Below are positions 15,786 through 40,679 of a DNA stretch of 64,000 bases, in pieces. Below the pieces are notes generated by a model. The model was given only the letters and a program-made list of their open reading frames with translations. It had not been told where the DNA came from and did no database searches. The stretch covers positions 496,001 through 560,000 of the forward strand of contig NZ_CP010899.1 in the NCBI RefSeq assembly GCF_001274875.1. Reading direction: 5' to 3'. The DNA is from Spiroplasma kunkelii CR2-3x. Lineage in GTDB: Bacteria; Bacillota_I; Bacilli_A; Mycoplasmatales; Mycoplasmataceae. The translations under genes were made by a program, and so were the position numbers. Every line of letters starts with the position of its first letter. Position 1 is the first letter of the stretch.

Positions 15786-16202
15786 ATGAAAAAATGAATA
15801 AGTATTTTAGGAACAATCGGATTAACCGCAACAAGTACAACAACATTAATCAGTTGTAATAAAGAAAATAATAATGAAAACGAGGCAAGTAATAAACCAA
15901 AACCATCACCAAAACCATCACCAAAACCATCATATAACACACAACAACCACCAGAAAATAGTAATTGAAAATTAGCTAATGATTTTATTGATGAAAAAAA
16001 TAATGATAATAAAAATTATATTGGTATTATTAAAATTGAAAATGATTTTAAAATTATAAAATGAATTGGAAAATATATAGATTGAAAATATCAATATATT
16101 AACATTTATCGTTGAGATGGCGTTGGTGAACCTGAAATACCAACAATCAACGAAAACACTGGTGAAATTACTGACTGAAAAGAACAAAAAGGAACTAAAT
16201 AA
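15786..16202 (+). CDS. phage-linked surface lipoprotein, variable-core type 1
   Basis: A 138-aa lipoprotein. Signal peptide MKKWISILGTIGLTATSTTT with lipobox LISC (Cys24), then a Pro-Lys-Ser linker (KPKPSPKPSPKPS), then a globular part from NSNWKL through NIYRWDGVGEPEIPTINENT to GEITDWKEQKGTK. The start of the globular part (QPPENSNWKL) and the end (PTINENTGEITDWKEQKG) are nearly those of the lipoprotein at 38850-39260, but the core between them is completely different. Followed by the same bidirectional terminator and a reversed ORF1 tail, so it is the lipoprotein of an inverted, truncated plectrovirus. Proposed role: see findings. Confidence 0.85.
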
Positions 16203-16217
16203 CAGTTCCTTTTTTAT
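16184..16217. terminator. bidirectional terminator between lipoprotein and ORF1 remnant
   Basis: AAAAAGGAACT-AAATAAC-AGTTCCTTTTTT. An equivalent hairpin separates the intact ORF1 and its lipoprotein at 38.84-38.87 kb. Confidence 0.85.
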
Positions 16218-16463
16218 ATTAATCGTACAAATTTCATAAAGATAATTAATAAAAAAATATTTGTTATTGTACTATACAATGCAGGATTAAATTTTCATAC
16301 CCCAAATATTTGACTAAAAAAACTATATACTGTCTCAAAAACCTTGCCAACACCACTCGCTAACTCGTTAACTTGTTTAACTCCCGGAATAGTGTTAACA
16401 ATTCAAATCATCGCATTTTTAATATGAGTACCAAAATCTCATCAACCTTTAGGAGTTATCACC
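16214..16463 (-). pseudogene. C-terminal fragment of plectrovirus ORF1
   Basis: Minus strand encodes VTPKGWWDFGTHIKNAMIWI, VNTIPGVKQVNELASGVGKV and FETVYSFFSQIFGVWKFNPA to the stop, almost identical to the last 80 residues of the intact ORF1 at 36712-38838. Everything upstream, including the segment that would carry the type 1 variable core, is lost at about 16463. Confidence 0.9.
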
Positions 16464-17865: not shown

Positions 17866-17866
17866 T

Positions 17867-18655: not shown

Positions 18656-18925
18656 TTATTTCACCTCCTTATTAGGTAATTTTTTATATAAAGATTTATC
18701 TTTTATAATAAAAGTATCTTCTCTTCGACCATTTACATATTGACAATATTCATCAAAATCTTCTTTATATAATTGGCGTTGTTGTAAATCATATATTTCT
18801 AATACAAGTTTTTCTCACTCTTTATCTTTTTCAGCAAGTTCTTTTTTAAGTGTTTCATTTTCTGCTTTAAGTGCATCATTTTCTTCTTGTAATTTATCAA
18901 ATTTAATTGATTCTGTTTTTGTCAT
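18656..18925 (-). CDS. phage coiled-coil protein (89 aa)
   Basis: ATG 18925 overlaps the stop of the pentapeptide gene by one base. An extended coiled coil (FDKLQEENDALKAENETLKK) is followed by the conserved YKEDFDEYCQYVNGRREDTF and IIKDKSLYKKLPNKEVK. Compared with the 73-aa copy at 13812-14033 the coil has an inserted segment (AEKDKEWEKLVLEIYDLQQR). Function unknown. Confidence 0.8.
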
Positions 18926-19140
18926 TATTTATCCTCCTCAATAGTTAATTGTTCTAATTGTTTTTTTGTGATTTTAATACCACATAAATAAGCACCTTTT
19001 AAATAAGCACCTTCTAAATTAGCATCTCATAAATTAGCATCTTCTAAATCTAATCTTTCACTTTCTAAATATTGATTTAATTTTTCTTTTTCAACAGTAA
19101 CTCCTGTTAAGTCCGGAATCATATCTTTTAATGTTTTCAT
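18925..19140 (-). CDS. short pentapeptide-repeat protein (71 aa)
   Basis: Same leader as the 13474 copy (MKTLKDMIPDLTGVTVEKEK) but only about five repeats (LDLEDANLWDANLEGAYLKG), then IKITKKQLEQLTIEEDK. ATG 19140 after GGAGGAATTATAAT. Repeat number differs among the three paralogues (about 12, 5 and 6), consistent with expansion or contraction by slippage between near-identical 15-nt units. Confidence 0.8.
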
Positions 19141-19141
19141 A

Positions 19142-19279
19142 TTATAATTCCTCCAAATTCTTTTCTTCAATTAATGTCTCAATATAGTCATAAGCACTCT
19201 CTTCTGAATGACATTCTTCTAATGCTTCATTAAATAAATCTTCTTCAGTATAAATATTTCCATTTTCATCTTTATACAT
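19142..19279 (-). CDS. small acidic phage protein (45 aa)
   Basis: MYKDENGNIYTEEDLFNEAL...SAYDYIETLIEEKNLEEL. ATG 19279 follows the neighbour's stop (TAATATG) with AAAGAAGGG as ribosome site; an in-frame extension further upstream is the antisense-free shadow of the 97-aa gene and is not used. A close paralogue with the same neighbours is at 31918-32055. Strongly acidic; function unknown. Confidence 0.75.
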   Translation of the reverse strand: MYKDENGNIYTEEDLFNEALEECHSEESAYDYIETLIEEKNLEEL

Positions 19280-19280
19280 A

Positions 19281-19574
19281 TTATTCATTCCCTTCTTTAC
19301 AAGATTCTTGATTTCTTTTTCTTCTTTCACAATCTTTACAAATTTCGGTTTTTTCTCAATTTTTACGATTATTATCATAATCTTCAATTAACTGTTTAAA
19401 TTCATCAATATTATATTTATCAAGATGTAATTCTTTAAAATTTAATGATCAATCATTTTCAACATAATAATGACCTGCGGTAAAATCATATTTAGAATAA
19501 TTTTCATCTTCTTTGGTTTGATATTTTTCATAAAATTCATCAATACTAAATCTTATAATATTATTTTTACTCAT
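19281..19574 (-). CDS. phage protein with C-terminal Cys motif (97 aa)
   Basis: MSKNNIIRFSIDEFYEKYQT...YYVENDWSLNFKELHLD, ending EICKDCERRKRNQESCKEGN. The CxxC-x8-C pattern could bind zinc. ATG 19574 overlaps the neighbour region with TAATATG spacing. No copy is present in the 30-32.5-kb operon. Function unknown; coding supported by TGA-Trp codons and operon packing. Confidence 0.7.
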
Positions 19575-19575
19575 A

Positions 19576-19821
19576 TTATTTTTCTTCCTTTAATATAAGT
19601 TCTAATAATTTAATTCTTTTTTTATAATCTTCTAGGCGATTATTTTCTGATACAGAGTTATCCCTTTTATTTATTGTGATTATTAATTCCATTTTTTTAT
19701 TAAAAATTTTAATTGTTTCATCATATGCATAAGTATAAATTTCATAGCAGTATTCATCATCTAATTTATTAATAACTTGTTTTTGAAATGCTGATAATTG
19801 TAAATTTCTAATTTCTTTCAT
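19576..19821 (-). CDS. phage protein (81 aa)
   Basis: MKEIRNLQLSAFQKQVINKL-DDEYCYEIYTYAYDETIKIF...KKRIKLLELILKEEK. ATG 19821 is preferred over the in-frame ATG at 19845, because AAGGAGATAAATAAT sits directly before 19821. A decayed paralogue lies at 32071-32391. Function unknown. Confidence 0.7.
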   Translation of the reverse strand: MKEIRNLQLSAFQKQVINKLDDEYCYEIYTYAYDETIKIFNKKMELIITINKRDNSVSENNRLEDYKKRIKLLELILKEEK

Positions 19822-19822
19822 A

Positions 19823-20011
19823 TTATTTATCTCCTTGCCATTCAATATTTTTATTTTCTAAATCAATAATGGTTGTTAATCATCCGCCTTTATTATCACG
19901 CTTAGCAGCAACCTTTGCTTCTGCTAATGTATAGAATTTTTCTGTATTTACACTTCCAATGTCATCTATATCAAATGAAATTTTTGATATTAATATGTAT
20001 CTTTTTTCCAT
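19823..20011 (-). CDS. phage protein (62 aa)
   Basis: MEKRYILISKISFDIDDIGS...FYTLAEAKVAAKRDNKGG...TTIIDLENKNIEWQGDK. Compact alpha/beta-looking protein. ATG 20011 after TTAGGAGGAATTAAATT. The counterpart at 32397-32570 has FYTATEAQSFSESNKDRDNQ and the same length class. Function unknown. Confidence 0.7.
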
Positions 20012-21409: not shown

Positions 21410-21576
21410 TATTTGTAAAGTGAAAAACAACAAACAAGGTATTAAACTTAAATAAAATGTTAAATAATTATATACCTTTCTAATAATTATGACAATAGTT
21501 TATTTTAATTTTACTTAAATATGTGATATAATTTATTTATAAGAAAAGTGGGCATATTGATATGGAGGGATATAGT

Positions 21577-22587
21577 ATGAATAATAATGTTCCAAAATTT
21601 AGTGGTGGAAATGAAAATCATTTTAATTCGTTTGAAAATAACAATAGTTTTGGCAATGATAATTTATTAAACCAAAATGCACCAGTAACACCACTAACAA
21701 AACCAATTAGAGTTCCTGGTAATCCAAACGATTTTAAAACAAAAACTAATCCACCTTTTAATTCTTCTTACATTTCAAAAACTTTGGGAATTAATGGAAC
21801 AGAAATTAAACCGCAACATAATAAACCAATTTATCAACCAATTATTTATCAACCGTTTGTTATGCCTATTATGCCTCCTAATCCAATGAATGCGATGGGA
21901 ATGGGGGCATATAATCCGATGATTGGTTATCCGCAAATGTTCCCTTATCCAATGATGATGGGTTATCCGCAAATGTCACAATATCCCGGAATGTTAACTT
22001 ATCCTTCAATGGTAGCACCAGAAGTAGAGCAACAATTTGCTGGTCAAGATTCTAATTTTAATAAAAGACAGTATTCGCAAGATTCAGGTCGTCATTACGC
22101 AATTATGAATCCAGATTTGATGAAACAACAACAGGGAATCAATAACGATTTTGATGATAATTTTGATGATACGTTTAATGAGGGAACTCCTTTTGGTACA
22201 AACCATGATTTTAATCAAACAAATGACTTTGGTAGTGCTAATTTTTCTGGTCAAAATGATTTTGGCCAAGGAAATTCAAATTTTGGACCAACACCAGATT
22301 TTAATGCAGCACCAAGCTTTAGTTTATCACCTGATTTTGCTCCATCAGATGGTTTTAATAATAGCAATGTTTTGGGTAAAATTGATGCAACAAAAATGCC
22401 ATTTCAATATGATGAAGAAACAAGCAAGCGAAAATTACCAGTTTGAGCAATAGTTTTAATTGTTGTGTTAGTACTTTTAGTTTTAGTAGTTATAACAATT
22501 GTAATGTTGTATTTTAATATAGAAGCAGTTCATGACTTAATTAATGGTTGATTTGGCCTTGATGTACCATTTGAGCCGTGGTTTTAA
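21577..22587 (+). CDS. Pro/Asn/Met-rich protein with C-terminal membrane anchor (336 aa)
   Basis: Start ATG 21577, spaced 7 nt from GGAGGG; the ATG at 21562 lies inside the ribosome site and is rejected. Residues 1-90 are Asn/Phe-rich; 90-150 are Pro-Met-Tyr-Gly repeats (PMIGYPQMFPYPMMMGYPQM); 170-260 are acidic Asp-Phe-Asn-Gly repeats (NDFDDNFDDTFNEG, FGQGNSNFGP). One helix (VWAIVLIVVLVLLVLVVITI) comes near residue 297, then 25 residues. Tail-anchored with a long disordered cytoplasmic part, or type I if inverted. Proline- and Met-rich disordered regions occur in mollicute cytoskeletal and tip proteins, so a cytoskeletal role is possible. A TATAAT lies at about 21525. No homologue recognised. 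Confidence 0.85.
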
Positions 22588-22613
22588 AAATGTTATTAAA
22601 TAACATTTTTTAT
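22588..22613 (+). terminator. terminator after the Pro/Asn/Met-rich gene
   Basis: AAAATGTTATT / AATAACATTTTTTATTT directly after the stop codon. Confidence 0.85.
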
Positions 22614-22708
22614 TTATTTTGTAGAAATCACAAACATTTTGTATTTTTGGTTTTTACAGTTTTGGAAAGTAAATTTTTTTTAATATTTTTAATTAAGGAG
22701 TTGAAATT

Positions 22709-22819
22709 ATGCAAACAAAGCAATATTTTATTTTGCGGTCGCTAGTTAAAAAGTATGGTAAAGATAATGTTATTAATACTGTTAATAAGATTGCAAAAGA
22801 TATTGAAATTAAAAAGTAA
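22709..22819 (+). CDS. plectrovirus small protein (36 aa)
   Basis: MQTKQYFILRSLVKKYGKDN then VINTVNKIAKDIEIKK. Basic and helical. ATG 22709 after TTAAGGAGTTGAAATT. The amino acid sequence is unchanged in the copy at 32680-32790, which supports coding. First gene of a short plectrovirus fragment (22.68-23.49 kb). Possibly DNA-binding; not recognised. Confidence 0.75.
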   Translation: MQTKQYFILRSLVKKYGKDNVINTVNKIAKDIEIKK

Positions 22820-22834
22820 AAGAATAAATTATCC

Positions 22835-22915
22835 GTTAGTAAATTATGCGGAATAATTTTTTCAATAGTGTTTTTTAAAGGAGCAAAGCGACAATGAGCG
22901 GAGCGAGTTTGCAAA
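22835..22915 (+). other. conserved non-coding plectrovirus segment
   Basis: Contains GGAGCAAAGCGACAATGAGC and GGAGCGAGTTTGCAAATTTC, preceded by ATTATGCGGAATAATTTTTT (hairpin). The same segment with few changes is at 32805-32888. Conservation without an ORF points to a structural RNA, terminator or packaging signal. Confidence 0.5.
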
Positions 22916-22951
22916 TTTCAATTTTTTTTGTTTTTATAGGGGAGATATAAT

Positions 22952-23093
22952 ATGCCAACTTGATTAAAGACAATATTTAGTGTTGTTATTATATTATAAA
23001 TTTTTGCTTAAATTGGTTTATCAATTTATCAAAAAATTAAACAAATTAGAGGAAAGAAAAAAAGAAATTGAAAGAAAGGAGGATAAAAAATAA
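22952..23093 (+). pseudogene. plectrovirus small membrane protein, broken copy
   Basis: MPTWLKTIFSVVIIL then TAA; the rest of the frame is recognisable ([20 protein letters not shown]) but shifted. The intact copy is at 32923-33072. Confidence 0.8.
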
Positions 23094-23344
23094 TGTTAGG
23101 TATGTATTTAATAACAGCAGTTAATTTTTTAACAGCACCTACACCTAAAACTATGACTGAGGGTATGACTGGTATTTGAACTGGTTTATCTAGTGTATTA
23201 TGAAAAGTTAAAGAAGGTATAATAAATATTTTACCTGAGATAATGGTTTTCTTAGGTAAAGCGTGAATTATTTTAATTCCGTTTGCAATTTTTTTGATTA
23301 TTAAAGTATTAAGCTTTTTCCGTGTTATGGTTAAAGGAATTTAG
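23093..23344 (+). CDS. plectrovirus coat-like membrane protein (83 aa)
   Basis: MLGMYLITAVNFLTAPTPKT, MTEGMTGIWTGLSSVLWKVK, then a hydrophobic helix (WIILIPFAIFLIIKVLSFF) and RVMVKGI. Ribosome site AAAGGAGGATAAAAA. Small inner-membrane protein with a short periplasmic-like part and basic C terminus, the design of inovirus/plectrovirus major coat proteins, so that assignment is inferred. 90% like the copy at 33072-33320. Confidence 0.75.
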
Positions 23345-23369
23345 TATTTATTATTTATCATGTATTTTA

Positions 23370-23482
23370 ATTGTGGCACACTAGTTTTTATATGTGATAA
23401 ATAATATCAACTTAAAACTTATGATTTTATATTTTAATAACTATTGTTAAAAATTAAATAGTATTTTTCAGTGTGCCAATTT
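23370..23482 (+). repeat. inverted repeat GGCACACT / AGTGTGCC with long loop
   Basis: GTGGCACACTAG at about 23373 and AGTGTGCCAA at about 23471 pair across 85-90 nt of AT-rich loop. The same arms at the same spacing are at 33350-33455. The plectrovirus fragment ends immediately after the right arm. Candidate terminator, packaging or replication structure. The rest of 23345-23692 holds a small hairpin AACCTG/CAGGTT (about 23608) and a TATAAT-like box (about 23642) before lepA. Confidence 0.6.
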
Positions 23483-23692
23483 TTATGTATAATGTACGAT
23501 GCCTTTTTTAAAAATAATTGTTTCAGAGTTTCATTTTTTAAATTTTATATTATATTATATTGTATTTATTTTAAAAATTCAATGTGACTATAATTATTTA
23601 TTATTAAAACCTGCTATTTCAGGTTATTTTGCTAAAATTATGTATAATAATATCAGAGATGTAACTGTTTATAGAAAGGGTTTTAATTTTAA

Positions 23693-25495
23693 ATGGATAA
23701 AAAATTAATTCGTAATTTTTCAATTATTGCTCATATTGACCATGGGAAGTCAACCTTAGCAGACCGGATTTTAGAATTAACAGGGACAGTTGAAAAACGA
23801 GAAATGCAAGAACAATTATTGGATTCAATGGATTTAGAACGTGAACGAGGAATAACAATTAAATTAAATTCTGTTCAGTTAAAATATCGTGCTCAAGATC
23901 AACAAGAGTATATTTTTCATTTAATTGATACACCAGGGCATGTTGATTTTACCTATGAAGTTTCACGTAGTTTAGCAGCTTGTGAAGGAGCAATTTTAGT
24001 TGTTGATGCAGCACAAGGAATTGAAGCCCAAACATTAGCAAATGTTTATTTAGCAATTGATAATAATTTAGCAATTATCCCTGTTATTAATAAAATTGAT
24101 TTACCATCTGCTGATCCAGACCGTGTAAAAGAAGAAATTGAAAATTTAATTGGAATTCCAACAACAAATGCACCATTAATTAGTGCTAAGACAGGGTTAA
24201 ATATTGAACAGGTCTTAGAAGCAATTGTTAAAAATATCCCCGCGCCTTTAGAAGGCGATAATAATAATCCATTGCAAGCATTAATTTTTGACTCATATTA
24301 TGATAAATACCGTGGTGTAATGGTCTCAATTCGAGTTAAACAAGGAATTGTTCATATTGGTGAAAAAATAAAATTAATGAATACTGGTGTTGTTTATGAA
24401 GTTACTGAATTAGGAGTTAAAACACCAAAAGAAGTTAAAAAAAATCAATTAGTTGCTGGTGAAGTAGGTTGATTAGCAGCAAGTATTAAAATGGTCCGTG
24501 ATGTTCGGGTTGGTGATACGATTACAACCGTTGCTAATCCAGCTCAACAGCCATTACCAGGATATAAAAAAATGAACTCAATGGTATTTTGTGGATTATA
24601 TCCAATTGATTCCGCTAAATATAAATATTTAAAAGAAGCTTTAGAAAAAATTCAGTTATCCGATTCTTCCCTTGTTTATGAACCAGAAACATCACAAGCA
24701 TTAGGTTTTGGTTTTCGTTGTGGCTTTTTAGGATTATTACATATGGATGTTATTCAAGAACGGTTAGAACGAGAATATAATTTAGAATTAATTGCAACTG
24801 CTCCATCGGTAATTTATCATGTTTATTTAACAAATAAGGAAATGATTAGTATTGATAATCCAAGAGAATTACCAACTGTGCAAAAAATTGATCGCATTGA
24901 AGAACCATTTGTCAAAGCAACGATTATGACTCCTGAGCAATATATTGGTTCATTAATGGAATTATGTCAAAATAAACGTGGAACATATGCTAATTTAGAG
25001 TATATTGATGATACACGGCGAATTTTAACTTATGAAATGCCATTAAATGAAATTGTGTTTGATTTTTTTGATCGGTTAAAATCAATTAGTAAAGGTTATG
25101 CTTCGTTAAATTATGATTTTATTGGTTATCGTCCTAATAAATTAGTTAAAATGGATATTTTATTAAACAATGAAATTATTGATGCTTTATCAATTATTGT
25201 TCATCGTGATTTTGCTTATGGGCGTGGTAAAGCCTTATGTGCAAAATTAAAAGAAATTATCCCTCGGCAAAATTTTGAAGTTCCAATTCAGGCAGCCATT
25301 AATCATAAAGTTATTGCACGAGAAGATATTAAAGCAATGCGTAAAAATGTCTTAGCAAAATGTTATGGCGGTGATATTACTCGGAAAAAGAAATTATTAC
25401 AAAAACAAAAAGAAGGAAAAAAACGAATGAAAGCAATTGGCTCAGTTGAAGTTCCCCAAGAAGCTTTTATGGCTGTTTTAAAATTAGATGATTAA
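23693..25495 (+). CDS. lepA: elongation factor 4 (back-translocase)
   Basis: A 600-aa translational GTPase of normal length. G1 AHIDHGKST, the RGITIKLNS switch, DTPGHVDF (G3) and NKIDLP (G4). LepA-specific C-terminal part: [20 protein letters not shown], then [20 protein letters not shown]. It back-translocates or rescues stalled ribosomes. ATG 23693 after AGAAAGGGTTTTAATTTTAA. One internal TGA-Trp at 24470. Intact although flanked by phage DNA on both sides. Confidence 0.97.
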
Positions 25496-25575
25496 TTGCT
25501 ATTGTTAGCAATTTTTTATTAATAAAAAGTGATTTAATTATTTAAAGGTATTAATTATAATAAAAGGTGATAATA

Positions 25576-25914
25576 ATGAATCTAAAACATAATAATTTTT
25601 ATCATAAGTTTCTTAGTTTCTTTTTATTAGCATTATTATTTTATATTTTTTTCTTTTGACAAATTGGAATTATTTATCCAGTAAATAATTTTGTTTTCAA
25701 TAATGTTCTTTTTAATTTAGCCTATGTAGTATTAATTTTCTTTGTTTCTGTTTTTGCCGTAGGGATTTTAATTTAAATTTTAATTATTTTCCGCTTATAT
25801 CAATAATCATTTGACCATTATAAATTATTGATTAAAACAAATTGATTTGTTCTTTTAACATGATTATTAAATTTAATTTTATGTGCTGTTAAAATTACTA
25901 TTAAACCAAGATAA
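25576..25914 (+). pseudogene. small membrane protein with two internal stops
   Basis: ATG 25576 after AAAAGGTGATAATA. MNLKHNNFYHKFLSFFLLAL...FLAYVVLIFFVSVF, TAA at 25774, then the same frame continues IFRLYQ, TAA, SFDHYKLLIKTNWFVLLTWL to 25914. Three to four helices in all. Function unknown. A hairpin AAAGAGAT/ATCTTTTTTT follows. Confidence 0.55.
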
Positions 25915-25916
25915 AT

Positions 25917-25944
25917 AAAAAAGAGATATTAAATCTTTTTTTAT
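25917..25944. terminator. hairpin terminator between convergent genes
   Basis: AAAAAGAGAT-ATTAA-ATCTTTTTTT; can serve both strands. Confidence 0.75.
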
Positions 25945-26405
25945 TCTCCATTAATTTTTATATTACCATTATCATCAATAATTAAATCAGGTTCTTGTGT
26001 ATCTAAATTTCAACGATAAACTGATTTAATAAATTGTGGAAATTTTTTTCATGAATATAAGTATTCATCTTCATCAATATAATATAAATCTTTAAATTTT
26101 GTTTCTAAGTTTTTTGAAATTTTATTTCATCACTTATCATATTTAAACTTACTAATATTTCAATTTTGACCTTTTCATACTACATAATATCATTTATTAT
26201 CAACTGTATTAAATTGTTTTTCTTGTGGTGCTATTCATTCTAAATTGTCTTTAATTTCTTGGTTATCAGTATTTATTTTGTTTTCTTCTTTTAATTTTGC
26301 TAATTCTTCGGGTGTATATTCTTGTGTTTTATCACAAGCAACTAAACTTGTTGCACTTGTTCCCAATAATGTAATTGCACCAAATAAATTTAATCATTTC
26401 TTCAT
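25941..26405 (-). CDS. phage-linked surface lipoprotein, variable-core type 3
   Basis: A 154-aa lipoprotein. Signal MKKWLNLFGAITLLGTSATS with lipobox LVAC (Cys24), then a charged linker (DKTQEYTPEELAKLKEENKI) and a globular domain with WYYVVWKGQNWNISKFKYDK...VYRWNLDTQEPDL...DDNGNIKING. Pattern W-Y-x-x-V-x-K, W-x-I-x-K, (V/I)Y-(R/K)-W-N/D and a final D/N-G-x-I matches the plectrovirus lipoproteins and the internal ORF1 module, although the sequence is clearly divergent. ATG 26405 after AAGGAGACATACACATG. Opposite the decayed tailed-phage genes. Confidence 0.8.
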
Positions 26406-26428
26406 GTGTATGTCTCCTTATTTATTAA

Positions 26429-26898
26429 TTATCCTATTGAAAATATAAACATTCCATCTGTTATAGTTAACTGACCACTACCAATTATATCCATACCTAT
26501 AAGCATTTGAATGCCCTATTTTTCAATAGATTCTGATGTAATAGCAGAAATTCTTGTTGAAATTAAATCTCCTGAAGCAAAAGGAGATAATTTATTATTT
26601 ATTTATTTAATTTCTATTTTTTCATTTACACTAATACTAATAACAATCATTACGTCATATTTAAAAGCATCAACAGATTCATGTGATGCTGTCATTATTA
26701 CTGCTTTTCCAATTTCTTCTAAATTTAAATCATCAGCTATTTTTTAGACATTATTTTAGTAGAAGCACAAGTATTAATTAATCCATAACAATGTTTTCAT
26801 TGTTTAACTTCAAAATTAGTGTTTTTATTTTTTGGTTTTCCAATAGCAACAAATGCGCCAGGAAAATTATTATCAAAATATCTAACTACTTTACCCAT
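26429..26898 (-). pseudogene. retropepsin-like aspartic protease remnant
   Basis: MGKVVRYFDNNFPGAFVAIG...WKHCYGLINTCASTKIMSKK, frameshift, IADDLNLEEIGKAVIMTASH...DVMIVI, stop, GDLISTRISAI and IQMLIGMDIIGSGQLTITDG. Retropepsin-type proteases have L-I-D-T-G-A-S at the start and (I/L)IGMDI at the end. Here the catalytic triplet DTG has become NTC, and one frameshift plus two stops follow. Clearly dead. Starts at 26898, 8 nt inside the end of the neighbouring 85-aa gene. Confidence 0.7.
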
Positions 26899-27148
26899 TT
26901 AAACTAAAAAATCCCATCATATTTACTATATTATTATTTTCTAATCTTTGTATAGAATATAAACCATTATCGGGAGCATTTTTTTGTGCTTCTTTATAAG
27001 TTTTGTATAAACCTTTTATCTTACAGTTTACTAAAACTACATAATAACCATTTTTTTGTGGGTTTTCTTTTAATATTTCTTCTCTATGTTTATTAAATCA
27101 TTCATAATTTTTATTTATTTCTTCAATTCTTATATTTTTATTTACCAT
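26891..27148 (-). CDS. phage-linked protein of unknown function (85 aa)
   Basis: MVNKNIRIEEINKNYEWFNK...GYYVVLVNCKIKGLYKTYKE...GLYSIQRLENNNIVNMMGFF. ATG 27148 after AGGAGGTTTTATATTT, a strong ribosome site. Proteins of this type (Y/F-V-x-x-x...G-x-Y-x-T-Y-x-E-A) commonly precede retropepsin-like genes, which fits the operon with the dead protease downstream. Not otherwise recognised. Confidence 0.65.
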
Positions 27149-27451
27149 AAATATAAAACCTCCTGTAATTAATTTAATTGTATATAAATATAAGTTGTTT
27201 GTAAATACTTTTATTACGCGTTTTAATGCCTATATTAGCAATGAAATATATTAAGTTTAGTTGTGGTTGTGTGGTGTGGATATTTATATATATAAAAAGT
27301 ATTGTATTAGTAAAGTAATAGTATATAATAAAGGTAATGGTTTAATCTTTTGTTAAAAAAGCGTATTTACGGTTTAAGCTTTCCGCCTTAAAAAGAGTTT
27401 ATGCTGACTTGTTAATCGAACAAGAATAAAAAAATAGAGGTTTATAATAAA
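27149..27451 (+). promoter_or_regulatory. divergent control region of the structural genes
   Basis: No ORF. ATTGTATTAGTAAAGTAATA followed by GTATATAATAAAGG offers TTGTAT and TATAAT 17-18 nt apart at about 27303-27335, reading toward the scaffold gene. A GTTGTGGTTGTGTGGTGTGG tract (27250-27272) and the pyrimidine-purine hairpin AAGCTTTCCGCCTTAA... follow. The ribosome site TAGAGGTTTATAATAAA precedes 27452. Confidence 0.5.
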
Positions 27452-27913
27452 ATGGCAATTACAAAAGAACAATTAATAGAACAAGGTTTAAGTGCTGAAA
27501 TAGCAGATAATATATTAAATGAATTTAATAATTAAGCAAAACAAATTAGAGAAAGTTTACAAAAAAGAACAGATACTATTTCAAAAGAAGAGTATTTAAA
27601 AGTTGCTAATGAATTAGATGAATTAAAAGCTTTTAAAGATGTTACATCAACTAAAATTGAAGATATTAAAACTAATTTAGATAAAGTTAGTGGTAATTCT
27701 TTAAATGAAAGAATGCAAACTTTAAAAGAATTAAAACCTGATTTGTTTGTTGAAGAACAACAATTAATTTCACCAACTAATTTTATTAAAGATATGATTG
27801 AAAAATCTACTGAAAATAAAAATGATGAAATTGAAACTATTAAAGAAAAATGTGCATATACACCTGATGAAATTAAAAAATTAACTGATTTTACACTTAA
27901 AAACCTTAGATAA
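27452..27913 (+). pseudogene. phage scaffold-like protein with one stop
   Basis: MAITKEQLIEQGLSAEIADN-ILNEFNN, TAA at 27533, then the same frame AKQIRESLQKRTDTISKEEY...KLTDFTLKNLR to 27911. N-terminal KEQLIEQGLSxE...ILNEF resembles the start of Gp20-type minor structural/scaffolding proteins of Firmicutes phages, followed by a coiled-coil. It stands directly before the capsid-like gene, the usual place of a scaffold. Broken by a single stop. Confidence 0.6.
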
Positions 27914-27930
27914 TAAGGAAGTGAAATATT

Positions 27931-29092
27931 ATGGCAACAATTAATGTGCCACAAGTACCTTTTACATTACAAGGTAATACAACAGAGCAAAAAGCATATT
28001 GTGGTATGACAAAATGATTATTCATTACCAAATGGTGGGACAACTCAAACTATTGGATTAACAAGAATTCCAGTTCCTATTGATAAAAGATTTAATTTAA
28101 AATTAATGAATGAAGCATTTGATTTAAATATGATAGAAGCAAACATTAAAGGTGAAATTATTGCTGATGCTATTTCTAGTGTTGTACAAAATAAATTTGT
28201 TAATTTAAAATGTGAATTAATACAAGGTATTTATGATTATTGTTTAGCAGATGGACAATATTAAGTAATTCCATTTCGTAGTTATACAGCAGATAATACT
28301 GATGATGCTAATCGTGCATTTTTTAAATTAAATGAAACTTTAATTGATTTAACAAATCAAATTAGTAATTTATATTTTGGTTTACCAACAGATAAAATGT
28401 TTATGGTTTTAGGGCGAAGAGCTTATTTAGGATTAACACCTGCTTATTTAAAAGTAATTGGTTCAGAAGCACAATTAAAAGCAATGGTTAATTGTGAATT
28501 ATATGAAAATACCGTCATGGGTATTCCAGTATCAAAAAGTTTTCATTTAGAAAAAACATATACAAAAGGACAAGTTAATCGTGATAAAGGTTATAATTTT
28601 AATAATGTAAATGGTTTAATTATTAATAAACAAGTATGAGCATATCCAATTAATATGGATACTATTCAGCAAGTTTTAGATAATGATACTGTTAACCCTA
28701 AATGAATTGGTAAAGTTCAATATGCAACACCAACAATTTTATATCCAAAAACATGTAAAATTATTTTAGAAAGACAACCAACACAAACATAAATTACACA
28801 AGCAATTAATAATTTAAATAAAACTTATAGAGTTCCAATTGACTATACTATTGGAAAACCTGCTTTATCAACAGTTATTACAACACCTAATTTAGGTCAA
28901 ATAACAATGGCAGGCAATAACACCAACAACAGCAGAATTAGAAACTGCTATTAAAACAAAAAATACTAGTTATCAAACTGGGGATGTAACATTATCTAAT
29001 ATTACATCTACTGGTATTACATCTACTGGCGCATTAGCAACTGGAAATCCAAATAAGTATAGTGGAACAGTTTCTTTAATTTATTCAAAGTA
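27931..29092 (+). pseudogene. major-capsid-like protein with Ig-like C terminus, broken
   Basis: ATG 27931 after AAGGAAGTGAAATATT: MATINVPQVPFTLQGNTTEQ, frameshift, DYSLPNGGTTQTIGLTRIPV, LNMIEANIKGEIIADAISSV...LADGQY, stop at 28262, VIPFRSYTADNTDDANRAFF, LPTDKMFMVLGRRAYLGLTP...IILERQPTQT, stop at 28790, INNLNKTYRVPIDYTIGKPA, frameshift and TPTTAELETAIKTKNTSYQT...NKYSGTVSLIYSK. Length, position after the scaffold and layout fit an HK97-type capsid protein carrying an Ig-like decoration domain; inferred. Confidence 0.55.
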
Positions 29093-29512
29093 AGTAGCGC
29101 CATAGATATTCACGATAAAATTACGAGTGTTGATAGTTTAACAAATGATGAAATTATTAAAGGAATTACTGTACCACAAAAAGTAGCAAGTGAAGATTTA
29201 AGACCATTGTTAAATGCAAAAGTTTTAAAAGCAGTTAAAGCAGTTGATGCTAGTTTAACAACTAATAATTTTGATTGATGACATTTATATTATCAAGGTT
29301 CACCAGATACTTATGATATTACTGCAACAGATATTGAAATTGATATTTATATTGCTGGTAAAAAATAAAGTAACTCGTGTTTTACAAGTTCAATATTATA
29401 AAGTTCAAAAAGTAAATAAAATTAGTATTAAACAATTTAATAAAGATAATATTGGGTCTTTAAAAACACATTGATATAGTGGTGTTCCTGATTTAACTAA
29501 AAATCAGTTGTA
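29093..29512 (+). pseudogene. phage structural protein remnant
   Basis: SAIDIHDKITSVDSLTNDEI, DLRPLLNAKVLKAVKAVDAS, WWHLYYQGSPDTYDITATDI, frameshift in the A6 tract at 29362, VTRVLQVQYYKVQKVNKISI...LKTHWYSGVPDLTKN. No start codon with ribosome site. Repeats of the DITATDIEIDIYIAG type suggest an Ig-like beta domain. Function in the particle unknown. Confidence 0.5.
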
Positions 29513-29749
29513 ATTGATGAAATGAATACAGGAATTATTAAAGCAATTCAAAAAATTAATTCTGGTTTAAGAACATCAGATTATAATGTTAATATTTTAG
29601 ATTATTCACATCAAATCTTTAATTATAGAGATGAGGGTCATTTTAGTAAAGATGTTGAAGTACCATATAGTTTAAGTGGTACAAATTGATTAACTGAAGA
29701 AACAACTGTAATGCAAATTACACTTCCTGCTGTTACTAGAAAAAGTTAA
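29505..29749 (+). pseudogene. phage structural protein fragment
   Basis: VIDEMNTGIIKAIQKINSGL, SDYNVNILDYSHQIFNYRDE, GTNWLTEETTVMQITLPAVT, ending RKS-TAA. Possibly the continuation of the preceding remnant after another frameshift. Decayed; 29750-29881 holds no gene. Confidence 0.45.
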
Positions 29750-29881
29750 TTATGAATTTATTAATTTTAAGAATATTAACTTTATTAGTATCTAATTTAG
29801 AAAATAAGCTATTAAAATAAGCTATTAATAAATAAATTTGTTAATTTAATTAATAAAGTTAATCAAATTAAACAAAAAGCA

Positions 29882-30705
29882 TTAAAATCCTATATTTGAG
29901 ATATCTTCTTCTTTAACGACATTATCATTTGTGTCTGCTATTTCTGTATAAGATGGGGTACTTATATTATTTAATAAGGGCTTATTGCTCATCTGCCCCT
30001 TGTTTTTGGCGACATTAATATCTTTAAATGAAATATATTCAAAATTACCATCTTCTTTAATTTCTTTTTTCATCTAAATCAATATCTGAAATATCAATTC
30101 CCATTTCTAATGCTAATTTACGATATAATTTTTATTCAACCATTTCTTTTGGTCATTTATTTCAAGGTGAATATTCACTATTTCCACTCGGACTACTATT
30201 TTTTTAAACGTTCAATATCTGCTTTTCTTAATAAAATAACTTGATAATTCCCATTTTTATCTTTTGCATAAGCATAAGCACCAATTATTTCATTAAAATC
30301 ACTATTATTTGCATTAAAATTAATTCCATGTATTTTAGGACATGAAATTAAACTATCTCATTCAAATTTTTCATCTTTAAAAATAATTGCTTTTATTGGA
30401 CTATATCCTGCTTCTTCAATTCTTTTACAATAAACTTTACTATCAATAACAGTAGTTAATTTATTTTTAAATGGAATAATATTAAAATCTTTTCCAAAAA
30501 TTAACCCTTTATTACTTAATTTAATAATACCTAATGCTGTAATTTTAGTATTATCAGCAGTATTAACTAACTGCATATAACTTTGTCCATTTTTCATTTT
30601 TAATTCTTCAAGTGCTAAAATATTTTCTTTTAAATATTTATCATTAACTTTTAATTCATATTTAATAATTGCACCTTTAATATATTGTTGTAATTCATTT
30701 ACCAT
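29882..30705 (-). pseudogene. recT: recT, second copy, broken
   Basis: ATG 30705 after AAAGGAGTTAAATAAA. Residues 1-115 are nearly those of the first copy (MVNELQQYIKGAIIKYELKV). A frameshift lies near 30205 (LKK|NSSPSGNSEYSPWNKWP), a TAA replaces a codon near 30134, and another frameshift near 30070 follows. The end NKGQMSNKPLLNNISTPSYT...KEEDISNIGF is the native C terminus that the first copy lost. Confidence 0.85.
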
Positions 30706-30706
30706 T

Positions 30707-31462
30707 TTATTTAACTCCTTTAATTTTTATATTTATTCCTTTAATACCAACTATTTTATTATCAGTATTTGTATCTCATTGTGCTTTAATTGTGTTTTTA
30801 ACTAACTTTTCATTAACAATTAAATATTTAATTAATTGTTTTAATTCATATTGATTAGCATTTTCTAAAAAATCATTATCAATGCCCAGTATTTCAATAT
30901 TTTTATTAATAATTTTTCTTTTATTAAATTAATACCAACTTTTTTTAATTATTTTGGTTCTAATGATTTATCAATTTGCTCAATTTGTTCCATTACACTA
31001 ACTTGTTCATCTTGAATTTGGTCTATATCAAGACCCATATCTGGTGTTAAACTATTTGCTTTTTCAAGTAATTCTTGTTCTTTAAATAATTCATTTTGTT
31101 TTTTAATGCGTACTTGATTAATATTATTTTTAATTTCAATTTTATGATTTTCAATTATTTTTTTAATTGAATTAAATTATTTCTTAATTTATTAACATCA
31201 TCTAAACAATCATCAACTACTTTTACTGGTTCACGAAAAACAATATATACTTTACTTACAAGACTAGGAATATCTTTTAAATACACATCTTTATAATCAT
31301 TAGTATTATATAATAATTACGATGACGATAAATAAATTCTGCTAATTCTTGGCCATTTTCATCCATTCATTTTTTAATATTTAATGCTTTTAAACTTAAT
31401 TCTTTAAAATCATTATCTTTAATAACAAAAGGAAAAGAAATATTTTGAACTATATTACTCAT
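30707..31462 (-). pseudogene. recT-upstream protein, second copy, frameshifted
   Basis: ATG 31462: MSNIVQNISFPFVIKDNDFK...NYYINTNDYKDVYLKDIPSL matches the 262-aa protein at 17867-18655 until about 31175, where the frame is lost. The coiled-coil part (SKLINH, LNQIQDEQV) and end (KGIKYKN-like) are present in other frames. Not functional. Confidence 0.8.
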
Positions 31463-31683
31463 TATTCACCATACTTACTAGGTAATTTGTCATATTTTGA
31501 ATTATCTTTTAATTGATATATATGTAAAGGAACCCATTTATAATCACAAGAACATGTAGAATAAGAACATATAATAAAATCTTCTTTATATAATTGTTGT
31601 TGTTTTAATTCAGCAAGTTCTTTTTTAAGTTTTTCATTTTCTTTTTCTAACTTTTCATATTTAATTCATTCTGTTATATTCAT
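31462..31683 (-). CDS. phage coiled-coil protein (73 aa), third copy
   Basis: MNITEWIKYEKLEKENEKLK-KELAELKQQQLYKEDF then a different middle (IICSYSTCSCDYKWVPLHIY) and the common end DNSKYDKLPSKYGE. Four cysteines (CSYSTCSC) replace the VNGRREDTF block of the other copies. ATG 31683. Stop overlaps the next start by one base (TAATG). Confidence 0.75.
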
Positions 31684-31685
31684 TA

Positions 31686-31916
31686 TTAATCATCCTCAAT
31701 AACAGTTAATTGTTCTATTTGTTCTTTTGTGATTCCGATACCATATAAATAAGCACCATCTAAATCAGCATCTTTTAAATTAGCACACTTTAAATTAGCA
31801 CCTCGTAAATCAGCATCTTCTAAATCTAATCTTTCACTTTCTAAATATTTATTTATTTTTTGTTTTTCAACAGTAATTCCTGTTAAATCTTTAATTATAT
31901 CTTGTAATGTTTTCAT
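31686..31916 (-). CDS. pentapeptide-repeat protein (76 aa), third copy
   Basis: Leader MKTLQDIIKDLTGITVEKQK as in the two paralogues, then about six repeats (LDLEDADLRGANLKCANLKD) and IGITKEQIEQLTVIEDD. ATG 31916 after CGAGGAATTATAAA. Same neighbours as the copy at 18925-19140. Confidence 0.8.
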   Translation of the reverse strand: MKTLQDIIKDLTGITVEKQKINKYLESERLDLEDADLRGANLKCANLKDADLDGAYLYGIGITKEQIEQLTVIEDD

Positions 31917-31917
31917 T

Positions 31918-32055
31918 TTATAATTCCTCGAAATTCTTTTCCATAATTAATTTTTCAATATAGTCATAAGCACTCTCTTCTGAATAGCATTCTTCTATTG
32001 CTTCATTAAATAAATCTTCTTCAGAATAAACTTTGCCATCGTCATCTTTTCACAT
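31918..32055 (-). CDS. small acidic phage protein (45 aa), second copy
   Basis: MWKDDDGKVYSEEDLFNEAI...ESAYDYIEKLIMEKNFEEL, clearly the same family as 19142-19279; changes are mostly conservative, so both are likely selected proteins. ATG 32055 after AAAGGAGAATAAATA. Confidence 0.75.
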
Positions 32056-32070
32056 ATTATTTATTCTCCT

Positions 32071-32391
32071 TTAATATAAGTTATAATAATTTAATAGTTT
32101 TTTTATTATTTCTAATACTTTCAGTATATGGTTTAAACCTATTTAATTCTTTTTTAAGATATTCATTAAGATTTTCGATGTTTTTTCCGCATATTTTATT
32201 AGTTCCTTTATTGATACCTCGTCATCACCACTTAATATTTTTAACAAGAAATTACCATCATTATCAATAATATTAATAGCGGTATCTTTATTTTTTTCTT
32301 GTGATAAAATTTCATAGCAGTATTAATCATCTAATTTATTAATAATTTTTTTTTGAAATTCTGATAATTCTAATTTTCTAATTTCTTTCAT
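32071..32391 (-). pseudogene. phage protein, second copy, broken
   Basis: ATG 32391 (MKEIRKLELSEFQKKIINKL) corresponds to the 81-aa protein at 19576-19821. A TAA replaces a codon at LDD*YCYEI, and a frameshift near 32150 (LKKELNRFKPYTESIRNNKK) ends it. Confidence 0.75.
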
Positions 32392-32396
32392 ATTAT

Positions 32397-32570
32397 TTAT
32401 TTTCCAAATACTTCATCTTCTAAATCAATTAATCTAAACTGATTATCTCTATCTTTATTTGATTCACTGAAAGATTGTGCTTCTGTTGCAGTATAAAATA
32501 AAAATGAATTAATACGGTATAATTTACCTAAATATGTTTTTTGAATTAATAAATATCTTGCATTATTCAT
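32397..32570 (-). CDS. phage protein (57 aa), second copy
   Basis: MNNARYLLIQKTYLGKLYRI-NSFLFYTATEAQSFSESNKD ending IDLEDEVFGK. Counterpart of 19823-20011. ATG 32570 after AGAAGGAATTAAATT. Upstream of it the phage operon is cut: the Cys gene, operator and GC-richer block present in copy 1 are replaced at about 32.6 kb by the plectrovirus. Confidence 0.7.
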   Translation of the reverse strand: MNNARYLLIQKTYLGKLYRINSFLFYTATEAQSFSESNKDRDNQFRLIDLEDEVFGK

Positions 32571-32679
32571 AATTTAATTCCTTCTAATTCTTTCTAGTGT
32601 AAATTGTAAATGCCAACCGATAAAAAGTTAACTATTAATTTAATTAACTTTTTTAAGTTAATTATAGGAGGTTGAAATT

Positions 32680-32790
32680 ATGCAAACAAAGCAATATTTT
32701 ATTTTGCGGTCGCTAGTGAAAAAGTATGGTAAAGATAATGTTATTAATACTGTTAATAAGATTGCAAAAGATATTGAAATTAAAAAGTAA
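32680..32790 (+). CDS. plectrovirus small protein (36 aa), second copy
   Basis: Amino acid sequence identical to 22709-22819 (MQTKQYFILRSLVKKYGKDN...). ATG 32680 after ATAGGAGGTTGAAATT. First gene of the nearly complete plectrovirus that runs to 40.34 kb. Confidence 0.8.
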   Translation: MQTKQYFILRSLVKKYGKDNVINTVNKIAKDIEIKK

Positions 32791-32804
32791 AAGAATAAAT
32801 TATT

Positions 32805-32888
32805 CCGCGTAATTTATTAGCGGATAATTTATTCAATAATGTTTTTTAATGGAGCGAAGCGACAACGAGCGGAGCGAGTTTGCAAATT
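32805..32888 (+). other. conserved non-coding plectrovirus segment, second copy
   Basis: CCGCGTAATTTATTAGCGGA hairpin followed by GGAGCGAAGCGACAACGAGC and GGAGCGAGTTTGCAAATTTC. Matches 22835-22915. Confidence 0.5.
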
Positions 32889-32922
32889 TCAATTTTTTAA
32901 TTTTTTAGAAGGGAGTTATATT

Positions 32923-33072
32923 ATGCCAATTTGATTAACGACAATATTTAGTGTTCTTATTGTATTGGGGATTTTTCTTTATATTGGTTTAGGAATTTAT
33001 CAAAAAATTCGTCAAATTGAACGAAATAAAAAAGATAAAAAAGAAATTGAAAGAAAGGAGGATAAAAAATAA
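32923..33072 (+). CDS. plectrovirus small membrane protein (49 aa)
   Basis: [20 protein letters not shown] helix, [16 protein letters not shown], then a very basic/acidic tail [17 protein letters not shown] 32923 after AGAAGGGAGTTATATT. The TAA overlaps the coat gene ATG by one base. Single helix with charged cytoplasmic tail, like minor coat or assembly proteins of filamentous phages; role inferred. Confidence 0.8.
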
Positions 33073-33320
33073 TGTTAGGTATGTATTTAACAACAGCAGT
33101 TAATTTTTTAGTAAATACACCTAAAACTATGACTGAGGGTATGACTGGTATTTGAACTGGATTAACTAGTGCATTATGAAAAGTTAAAGATGGTGTAACA
33201 AATATTTTACCTGAGATAATGGTTTTCTTAGGCGATGCGTGAATTATTTTAATTCCGTTTGCTATATTTTGTATTATAAAAATATTAAATTTTTTCCGTA
33301 TTATGGTTAAAGGAGTTTAG
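33072..33320 (+). CDS. plectrovirus coat-like membrane protein (82 aa)
   Basis: [78 protein letters not shown]. Close homologue of 23093-23344. The N-terminal hydrophobic stretch may be a cleaved leader. The major-coat assignment rests on size, one strong helix, basic C terminus and conservation. Confidence 0.8.
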
Positions 33321-33345
33321 TATTTATTATTTATCATATATTTTA

Positions 33346-33460
33346 ACTGTGGCACACTAGTTTTTATATGTGATTTGATGTAAAAAATGAATTTATTAAA
33401 TAGAAAAATGAACTTATTATATTTACTATTAAAGTTCTTAATAGTTATTTTAAGTGTGCC
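33346..33460 (+). repeat. GGCACACT / AGTGTGCC inverted repeat, second copy
   Basis: Arms at about 33350 and 33450 with an AT-rich loop whose sequence differs from the 23.4-kb copy, while arms and spacing are kept. That pattern argues for a selected structure. Confidence 0.6.
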
Positions 33461-33482
33461 AATTTTTATTATTTTATATATT

Positions 33483-33672
33483 TAACATTGTTAATAACAT
33501 TGTTTATTAAAAAAACAGTACATTAACATTCTCATCTATAACATTGTTAATAAATATTGTTTATTACAATATATAAACATTATATTAACATTTTTTATAA
33601 CATTGTTAATAATCAGTGTTTATTACAATAAATAAACATTATACGAACATTATTTATAACATTGTTTATTAA
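33483..33672. repeat. iterons, about 59-bp tandem units
   Basis: TAACATTGTTAATAA begins at 33483, 33539 and 33598, and TAACATTGTTTATTA at 33657. Each unit also contains TGTTTATTA, and most contain AATAAACATTATA. Part of the 685-nt gene-free region 33321-34006. Tandem AT-rich units between coat genes and the rest of the genome fit a replication origin or protein-binding array. Confidence 0.75.
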
Positions 33673-33800
33673 GCTGTAAATGTTTTCTAAATAAGTGTTT
33701 AATTTTTCTAGTTAAGTTGTGAGTTGTTAATTTACAGCTGTAAATGTTTTCTAAATAAGTGTTTAATTTTTCTAGTTAAGTTGTGAGCTGTTAATTTACA
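33672..33800. repeat. 64-bp perfect-period tandem duplication
   Basis: Two units start AGCTGTAAATGTTTTCTAAA at 33672 and 33736 and differ at one base (GAGTTG versus GAGCTG). Each unit ends in ATTTACAGCT, the inverse of its start AGCTGTAAAT, so each can form a hairpin with 10-bp arms. Adjacent to the iterons. Confidence 0.8.
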
Positions 33801-34006
33801 GCTTTTAAGTTTTTTTATTTATATTTCAATATTAAGTTATGGTAAAGATTTTCCATTCTTTGAAATTATTATGTCTGTATTTGATTTTATATCATTTATT
33901 TTTATGATTATTATGCATATAAAATATATTTTTGAAATTAAGGTAGAATTTGATGTTGAAAAAGAAAAATTAATTCAATATTGACAAATTGAAGGAGTTG
34001 ATAAAA

Positions 34007-34522: not shown

Positions 34523-34524
34523 AA

Positions 34525-34728: not shown

Positions 34729-34735
34729 TTAAATT

Positions 34736-35053: not shown

Positions 35054-35080
35054 TAATTATAAATAACTATTGGAGGTAAA

Positions 35081-36094: not shown

Positions 36095-36098
36095 TTTA

Positions 36099-36711: not shown

Positions 36712-38838
36712 ATGAAAAAATCGTTATCTTTATTTGTCATATTTATTTTAAGTTTTTTAGGTTTGGTTATTCCATTTATTACTTTAACGGCGTTTGGACC
36801 GTTAAATGAGAAGCATTATATGCTTAAACTAGAGAATAGTACTGATAAAGGTATTAATGAAACTGATTTTATTAATACAATGTTTTTACGTAGTAGTTTT
36901 TTTGAAAATTGGTCGGAGACAAATTATTTTATTAATCCAACTTTAAAAACATCAAAAAAATTATCGTTTAATGATAAATGGTATTTGGATTTTTTACAAG
37001 ATAGTTATTCAACGGGATTTGTTTATGATAAACCAAGTTCATCTTTTTTTAGTTTTTATCAAATGTGAGATAGTTGAAAAAATACATATATGGTTGAAAA
37101 ATTTTATGATGTTAAAAAGGAAAATTTTTTGAATGATTTAACTGATTTTATTTATGCTTTTGCGGTAAAATATCAGATGTATGATGTATCTAAAAAAATT
37201 GTTGACAATATTGAGCGTTATAAAGAAAATCATTATTCAAGAGTTAAGTTAAAACAAGATAATTGAAAATTAATTACTAATAAATATATTCCACGAGATA
37301 CTGGGTGATATATTATAGTATACAAAAGTTTTAATCAATGACGAATAGAAAAAATTAATAGTTCAAAAAACTTTGGAAATGAAACTGGATATGATATGGA
37401 TATTATTTATAAATGAAACTTAAATAATGAACCTATGAACTCTCAATTACCAACTATCGACAAAAATAGTGGTGAAGTTACTGATTGGAATACTTATCAA
37501 CAAAATTTTGTAAAAGAATTTATTAATTATTCTTTAACTGCTGTTTTGCAAGAAAATATTAGAGTACAGCAAGGTGGTAGTGCGGATTATGAAAATCCGA
37601 ATAAGGTTGGAACAAAGCGGATAATTTTTAATTTTGAGACGGTTGATGAATTAGATGTTAAAAATATTAAAAAATCAATTTATCGAATGATTTTGACTGT
37701 TGATGAAGCAAATTTAATTATTTCGGGTAGTTTAGAGTTGAATAATGTTAATAGTGATGATTTAAGTTTTAATTTTAGTTTTATGCGAACGGGAACTGGT
37801 GAAGTTTTTAAATTTAATGGTTCAATTTATTCATTTATAAATAATAAAGATTTAAGATATTTTCAACAGTTTAACGGTCGTTTTGATTTATCTAATTTTT
37901 TACAGTCTTTTTTTGCAAGTGCTTTGGTACCAGTGTTTCAAAATCGTAGTTCATTTATAGAAAATGGATATATTGATAATTTGCAATATGATACTGTTTT
38001 AGTTAACTTTTTTGCGTTGAAATTGCAAAATTTTAATAATATTTTATTGAGTGAGAATATTAATGATAAATTACAATTTGATAAATTATTAAATAGTATG
38101 TTTAAGATTTCACAGAAATTTTATACTAATTATTTACGTACGATTTTTGATTTAGAAAATAATACTTATGTTCAAGGTTATAATAAAAAATATGGTTTAT
38201 TAGTAAATAATGGTTTTAAAATTTATCCACGATATTTTTATTTTTTGGATAAATATAAGCAATTAGATATTAAATTATATTCAGCATTTAAAAATCGGTT
38301 TTATACCATTAATAATTATGGTAGTGTTTTTAATTATGATTTTTCAGTTGCTAATAATTATGATATTAAGTTAAATTCTGGTTATGTTTTTGGTGGTGAT
38401 TTACAAAATAAATATGGTTTGCAATATAAAAAAATTGAAGAACAAAAAATCGGTTATAATGTTTTTGAATTGCAAGCACAAAAAGAGAATGATATGTATC
38501 GTTATTATGATTTTAATTTTGGGATTTATAATTGACAAGAGATAAATAGTGGTGGTTTATTCCCCGATAAGCAATGATGAGAAGTACAATATGTAACGCC
38601 TGAGGGTTGATGAGATTTTGGTGATCATATTAAAAATGCCGTAATTTGAATTGTTAATACTATTCCGGGAGTTAAACAAGTTAACGAGTTAGCGAGTGGT
38701 GTTGGCAAGGTTTTTGAGACAGTATATAGTTTTTTTAGTCAAATATTTGAGGTATGAAAATTTAATCCTGCATTGTATAGTACAATAACAAATATCTTTT
38801 TATTAATTATTTTTATGAAATTTGTACGATTAATATAA
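36712..38838 (+). CDS. plectrovirus large protein ORF1 (708 aa), adsorption/minor-coat candidate
   Basis: Signal/anchor MKKSLSLFVIFILSFLGLVI; large Asn/Tyr/Phe-rich extracytoplasmic part; C-terminal block GWWDFGDHIKNAVIWIVNTI...FSQIFEVWKFNPALY with a final helix (ITNIFLLIIFMKFVRLI). Residues 184-247, from NWKLITNKYIPRDTGWYIIV to the PMNSQLPT region, are encoded by 193 nt almost identical to part of the lipoprotein gene 38850-39260. The homology continues weakly to TDW (IDKNSGEVTDW). Layout with N-terminal signal, big surface part and C-terminal anchor is that of filamentous-phage pIII-type proteins; inferred. ATG 36712 after TTAGGAATTGAGTTT. One frame, many TGA-Trp. Confidence 0.85.
37261..37453 (+). 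repeat. shared-module repeat, ORF1 copy
   Basis: Identical in reverse complement to 38909-39101 except at 37311 (T here, C in the lipoprotein; Tyr codon TAT versus TAC). Flanks differ on both sides. Confidence 0.95.
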
Positions 38839-38868
38839 AAAAGGAACTGTTATTTAGTTCCTTTTTGT
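38837..38868. terminator. bidirectional terminator between ORF1 and lipoprotein
   Basis: AAAAAAGGAACT-GTTATTT-AGTTCCTTTTT. Conserved at 16184-16217. Confidence 0.85.
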
Positions 38869-39260
38869 TCTTTTCAGTTAGTAATTTTACCAGTTTTTTC
38901 GTTAATGGTTGGTAATTGAGAGTTCATAGGTTCATTATTTAAGTTTCATTTATAAATAATATCCATATCATATCCAGTTTCATTTCCAAAGTTTTTTGAA
39001 CTATTAATTTTTTCTATTCGTCATTGATTAAAACTTTTGTATACTATAATGTATCACCCAGTATCTCGTGGAATATATTTATTAGTAATTAATTTTCAAT
39101 TACTATTCTCTGGTGGTTGTTGTGCTTCTGGTGTTGGTATTATCGGTTTATTTTCTTCTTTATTATTATTTGGTTTTTCAGATTTTTCACAGCTGATTAG
39201 TGTTGTTGTACTTGTTGCGGTTAATCCGATTGTTCCTAAAATATTTATTCATTTTTTCAT
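38850..39260 (-). CDS. plectrovirus surface lipoprotein carrying the ORF1 module (136 aa), type 2
   Basis: Signal MKKWINILGTIGLTATSTTT, lipobox LISC (Cys24), linker with CEKSEKPNNNKEENKPIIPT, then QPPENSNWKLITNKYIPRDT...VYKSFNQWRIEKINSSKNFG...IIYKWNLNNEPMNSQLPTIN and EKTGKITNWKEQKGTK. The 64 residues from NWKL to LPT are identical to ORF1 residues 184-247. ATG 39260 after AAGGAGATAAAAAT. Convergent with ORF1 across a shared terminator. It would be anchored on the outer face of the infected cell, displaying the same domain as the virion protein. Confidence 0.9.
38909..39101 (-). repeat. shared-module repeat, lipoprotein copy
   Basis: Inverted partner of 37261-37453 (192 of 193 identical by direct comparison). 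Confidence 0.95.
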
Positions 39261-40672: not shown

Positions 40673-40679
40673 TATCTCC

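Follow-up and report, generated by a model that had tools for sequence, protein, structure and literature searches.

The window considered here is a stretch of 64,000 nucleotides from a Spiroplasma genome of 1.51 Mb that is translated with genetic code 4. On its minus strand, at 25941..26405, lies a gene for a lipoprotein of 154 amino acids, which we call LP3. Its frame is intact in code 4, with nine TGA codons read as tryptophan; it begins with ATG, is preceded by a Shine–Dalgarno sequence (AAGGAG, 9 nt 5′ of the start; 26414..26419, minus strand) and encodes the lipobox TSLVAC. The N-terminus scores 32.3 bits against the mollicute lipoprotein signal NF038029, for which the cut-off is 24. The motifs singled out in the initial annotation (here WYYVVWK, WNISK, VYRWN and DDNGNI) are all present, and residues 57–154 (25944..26237, minus strand) form a C-terminal module that hhalign and hmmsearch, run with controls, relate to a module in the lipoproteins (LPs) and ORF1 of plectroviruses.

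LP3 is intact, but the tailed prophage in which it lies, a relative of the Spiroplasma phage MaM-2019a, has decayed. To its right are a scaffold gene interrupted in frame by a stop at codon 28 (27452..27910, plus strand; 82–86% amino acid identity to that of MaM-2019a, the 86% being to the scaffold of locus L021), a major capsid gene split into several frames (27931..29362, plus strand; 82–87% to the MaM-2019a capsid over its main piece), a remnant of the small gene found after the capsid gene in relatives (29501..29746, plus strand; 67% to L023_19153) and decayed early genes, recognized by Pfam RecT and MaM matches and comprising pieces of RecT and of hyp605 and two small ORFs (29882..32570, minus strand). 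Scaffold and capsid stand in the order seen in MaM-2019a, in which a lipoprotein gene occupies the same place as LP3. The host gene lepA lies on the 3′ side of LP3 (left), from which it follows that the prophage has lost the half with the portal and terminase genes. Every other recognized phage gene beside LP3 is broken or truncated; the intactness of LP3 was nevertheless dropped as evidence of retention, as a 465-bp gene would, on a rough estimate, remain open by chance in about one case in three. A second MaM-like early region, separate from that at 29.9–32.6 kb, lies near another lipoprotein gene of the window, LP1, at 16957–20011, and includes a RecT gene that runs into foreign sequence at its end, an intact 262-amino acid relative of hyp605 and small ORFs. 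Three related ORFs with pentapeptide-like repeats (MKTLKDMIPDLTGVTVEK...) occur at 13474–13800, 18925–19170 and 31686–31916, two of them within phage early-gene regions.

The direct relatives of LP3 are the lipoproteins of MaM-2019a (UXX42185.1, UXX42206.1 and UXX42162.1), with 47–55% amino acid identity for the two that were compared, the MSRO-P1 lipoprotein being at 55%. Their genes lie between scaffold/capsid and a gene for a 1067-amino acid protein; they are annotated only as membrane or hypothetical proteins, and the record notes no link to plectrovirus ORF1. Particles from S. poulsonii are cited as having given phage-like contigs of the MaM-2019a kind (Ramirez et al. 2023, cited in PMC12453411). 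Beside the MaM lipoprotein at L021, on the same strand (8977–9981), is a gene for a secreted repeat-unit protein of 335 amino acids, which has no family match above cut-off, and one prophage elsewhere carries two different LP genes of the tailed-phage type in tandem (L032 9364–10562; G000 21500–41400).

It had been proposed from the letters of the window alone that LP3 is a third member of a module family otherwise seen in plectroviruses, linked here to a different, tailed-phage remnant, and this is borne out by profile comparison and by the MaM-2019a-like scaffold and capsid alongside. When 21 tailed-phage LP modules were aligned with 19 plectrovirus LP modules by hhalign, with signal peptides and hybrid sequences excluded, the probability was 96.2% (E 1.5e-9, score 51.3), against at most 5.2% (score at most 19.2) in 100 column-shuffled controls. 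A plectrovirus-only module profile finds LP3 at E 1.2e-3 and the MaM-2019a lipoproteins at approximately 1e-5 (hmmsearch). By these comparisons the kinship is one of sequence homology, so the statement that the modules match in order but not in sequence was too cautious. The MKKW start is indeed present in LP3, but has been ruled out as a sign of kinship because it belongs to the generic signal NF038029. The kinship is limited to the module: the PF12461 (DUF3688) model, to which ORF1 of the Plectroviridae (CoaA) belongs, gives no match to LP3, and what is shared lies at about residues 184–259 of ORF1. Among PADLOC, Pfam and PHROGs, LP3 matches signal or fragment families only.

Comparison of predicted folds, also proposed at the outset, has added less. 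Two AlphaFold models of moderate confidence (pLDDT 72.6 and 69.4) have a similar strand order with a variable insert; searches with both by Foldseek and VIA-align gave nothing worth naming (best Z 2.9 and 3.4), and no solved structure of a relative was found. The kinship is thus settled by sequence and not by structure. Its clearest evidence is a plectrovirus of the same genome (L038; G000:C1:1318861-1320964) in which plectrovirus sequence flanks a MaM-type module both in the LP and in an ORF1 fragment; on this comparison, the module has moved between phage types. MaM-type modules are seen on plectrovirus, MaM-like and siphovirus-type carriers, and the suggestion that this host has unrelated phages with one kind of surface lipoprotein in common has been upheld.

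The plectroviruses show what the module is paired with. In the window, ORF1 (36712..38838, plus strand; PF12461 at E 1.8e-249), which is annotated as the adhesion protein CoaA in the ICTV profile (PMC8295915), contains a hypervariable module of 231 bp (37260..37490, plus strand) with 94.8% DNA identity to an inverted copy (38872..39102, minus strand) within the convergent lipoprotein gene LP2 (38850..39260, minus strand). LP1 (15786..16202, plus strand) belongs to a plectrovirus remnant in which only the convergent 3′ end of its ORF1 is left (16217..16459, minus strand); a second copy of LP1 with its matched ORF1 survives at G000:C1:362788-365360. No near-identical copy of the LP3 module was found in the genome. 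Throughout this genome the LP gene is convergent to ORF1 and usually lies 18 bp past the ORF1 stop. Across nine ORF1/LP pairs, the module is 91–99% identical in amino acids to that of its own partner and 36% identical on average to those of the others (permutation p<1e-5); a tenth pair, P1046, which is absent from this matrix because its end anchor differs, has copies alike at 99% of DNA. The matching extends to other Spiroplasma genomes, with exceptions; three citri-group genomes were sampled by region, and in 22 of the 25 pairs found there the variable cores agree at approximately 92% or more. Mismatched pairs (L109, L111, L149, L072 and SpV1-R8A2B) fit either recent module exchange or exclusion across phages. 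The LP of SpV1-R8A2B (L059, 3042–3455) has a module that resembles the ORF1/LP2 type of the window (87% of DNA) and gives no match to its own ORF1.

At the DNA level the two copies of a pair are inverted repeats of 219–349 bp, 93–99.6% identical and with sharp ends. The own copies of 20 pairs differ at 17 positions in 1129 core codons, with a substitution ratio of 0.97; this is neutral-like, although 17 changes are too few to tell, and it does not prove constraint. Where phages of different genomes have a module in common, the rest of their sequence is 5–14% divergent, which implies that own copies are kept alike or are replaced together. The inverted repeat has already been annotated in C74 and SkV1, whereas the LP gene is absent from the published records of C74 (where its frame is broken), R8A2B and SkV1. 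Parts of it have been seen before, as the PHROGs family phrog_20608, 46 amino acids long and without an assigned function there, covers the LP N-terminus. It should also be noted that a protein of approximately 300 amino acids, encoded near a divergent MaM-like phage (L027 14713–15612; G000:C1:636713-637612) and in at least three other places, matches DUF3688 in its C-terminal part only (profile positions 409–686).

The same arrangement is found in tailed phages. On a plasmid of S. citri (L023), a MaM-like late operon ends in a module protein matched to a convergent LP (94% of amino acids, 99.6% of DNA), and the same operon end occurs in S. phoeniceum (L099; 98.2% of DNA). The present genome contains a siphovirus-type prophage (G000:C1:1273949-1289403 and beyond; L157, G000:C1:1273000-1290000) with genes for terminase, portal, protease-capsid, major tail, tape measure and minor tail proteins, the last protein of which (539 amino acids) has a module 98.2% identical over 283 bp to the DNA of a convergent LP. 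The late genes of this prophage are long and open. Outside the module, no mutual similarity was found among the plectrovirus, MaM-like and siphovirus-type carrier proteins. NCBI labels the plasmid carrier as DUF3688; this was rejected, since its PHROGs match to the plectrovirus ORF1 family covers the module only and the operon is MaM-like. For MaM-2019a proper, neither tblastn nor profile search found a module partner for the LP, and the 1067-amino acid neighbour does not covary significantly with it (Mantel r 0.19, p 0.20). Scans of viral contigs returned nothing. As judged from these sequences, unrelated Spiroplasma phages pair a putative virion attachment or tail gene with an LP gene that copies its most variable segment.

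As to the role of the copy, the initial annotation had raised a shared exclusion or host-surface function, and we give about an even chance to the following form of it: as a copy of the phage's own attachment module anchored in the membrane, the LP would keep out phages that bear the same module. The module, on an attachment or tail protein, would be the part of the virion that contacts the host surface. The infected cell would make a membrane-anchored LP with the same module, which could occupy the receptor or an entry factor from the cell's own side and would thereby bar same-module phages. Gene conversion between the inverted repeats of the phage genome may keep both module copies alike, and the conserved ends (TAATTGAAAATTA ... 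ACTGATTGAAA) may be the points at which new modules are swapped in. Because the partner half of its prophage has gone and MaM-2019a proper itself is without a partner, LP3 would work by itself and would counter any phage arriving with a similar module.

If a resident LP excludes same-module phages, the sharing of modules within a genome should be rare. Among independent plectroviruses of three genomes, with near-identical duplicates collapsed at a chosen cut-off, a module is shared by 1 of 264 within-genome pairs and by 14 of 556 between-genome pairs; one case within genomes compares with 4.8 expected under permuted labels (p=0.015, the pairs being non-independent). In this small sample the depletion supports exclusion but does not prove it. 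In addition, integrated SVTS2 DNA in lines of S. citri has been linked to resistance against that virus, according to the papers that cite this work (Sha 1995, cited in PMC8140453 and PMC1318496). Counting against exclusion are MaM-2019a proper, which has the module in its LP only, and the mismatched ORF1/LP pairs. The proposal has gained support from the matched modules and the depleted sharing, and stops short of proof.

The same evidence bears on other explanations. The LP copy might be a genetic reserve, the lipoprotein itself being of minor importance, with recombination between LP and adhesin bringing in new modules and shifting host range. A hypervariable core between conserved ends suits such cassette exchange, as do the mismatched pairs, the tailed-phage-type module inside the plectrovirus L038 and an ORF1 (L026) that has LP linker sequence upstream of its module. 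The copies, however, are nearly always identical, and so store no alternative, and the LP keeps its start, signal peptide, lipobox and frame even in partner-free tailed phages; a reserve is on balance unlikely. It can also be imagined that the inverted repeat serves DNA structure, as a hairpin or in packaging or replication, with the LP frame incidental. Its annotation as a repeat in C74 and SkV1 would agree with this, but it also occurs in tailed phages with double-stranded DNA, a lipoprotein signal almost always precedes the copy in the same frame, and MaM-2019a has the LP without the repeat, which together make this very improbable indeed.

Per-phage matching is also what would be needed if the modules bound each other, both halves being of one type, and the LP served as the adhesin's membrane anchor while virions are assembled or released; the membrane is the site of plectrovirus assembly (PMC8295915). 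Siphovirus-type and MaM-like phages, whose assembly as tailed phages takes place in the cytoplasm, show this pairing too, and the LPs of MaM-2019a are partnerless; we therefore regard self-binding as quite improbable. A similarly low likelihood attaches to the LP being a surface protein of lysogenic conversion that serves the bacterium, in insect or plant contact or antigenic variation, and is unrelated to phage entry. In one genome there are approximately 14 copies of the tailed-type LP besides many LPs of plectroviruses, almost all of them distinct in sequence, and spiralin is one of the spiroplasma surface lipoproteins with a part in insect contact (PMC2386487), but a role of this kind does not account for the agreement of each variant with the module on the virion protein of the same phage.

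Exclusion by an attachment protein made in the host has a parallel in the Ff phages, where host-made pIII saturates TolA and blocks superinfection (PMC7070036). If exclusion by the LP holds, the two would be alike in that each blocks the phage's own receptor; they differ in that pIII is the virion protein itself, whereas the Spiroplasma phages would use a separate lipoprotein gene with a copied module. Small exclusion lipoproteins have been described in phages T5 (Llp; PMC9586334) and TP-J34 (Ltp; PMC3952083). These are small phage lipoproteins on the host membrane, as the LP is predicted to be; no homology of LP3 to described exclusion or defence proteins was detected in the family libraries scanned. 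We know of no copying of the phage's own attachment protein in either Llp or Ltp.

A wider and more tentative reading, which we hold to be possible although the balance is somewhat against it, is that a transferable cassette has spread over at least three unrelated types of Spiroplasma phage (rod-shaped single-stranded DNA, MaM-like double-stranded DNA and siphovirus-type double-stranded DNA phages). Its two parts would be a hypervariable attachment module and a matching copy anchored in the membrane, held identical through gene conversion; it would confer module-specific immunity across families and so drive module diversity. The LP may offer a concrete gene for the old observation, as reported in citing papers, that S. 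citri with integrated SVTS2 DNA resists SVTS2 (Sha et al. 1995). The pairing suggests that this gene was missed in the reference genomes of SpV1 and SkV1, as far as the open-licence papers searched show. Should the module prove to be what binds the receptor, the sequence of the matched LP would be enough to tell the specificity of each phage, and immunity would have a common currency among unrelated phages competing in a single wall-less host.
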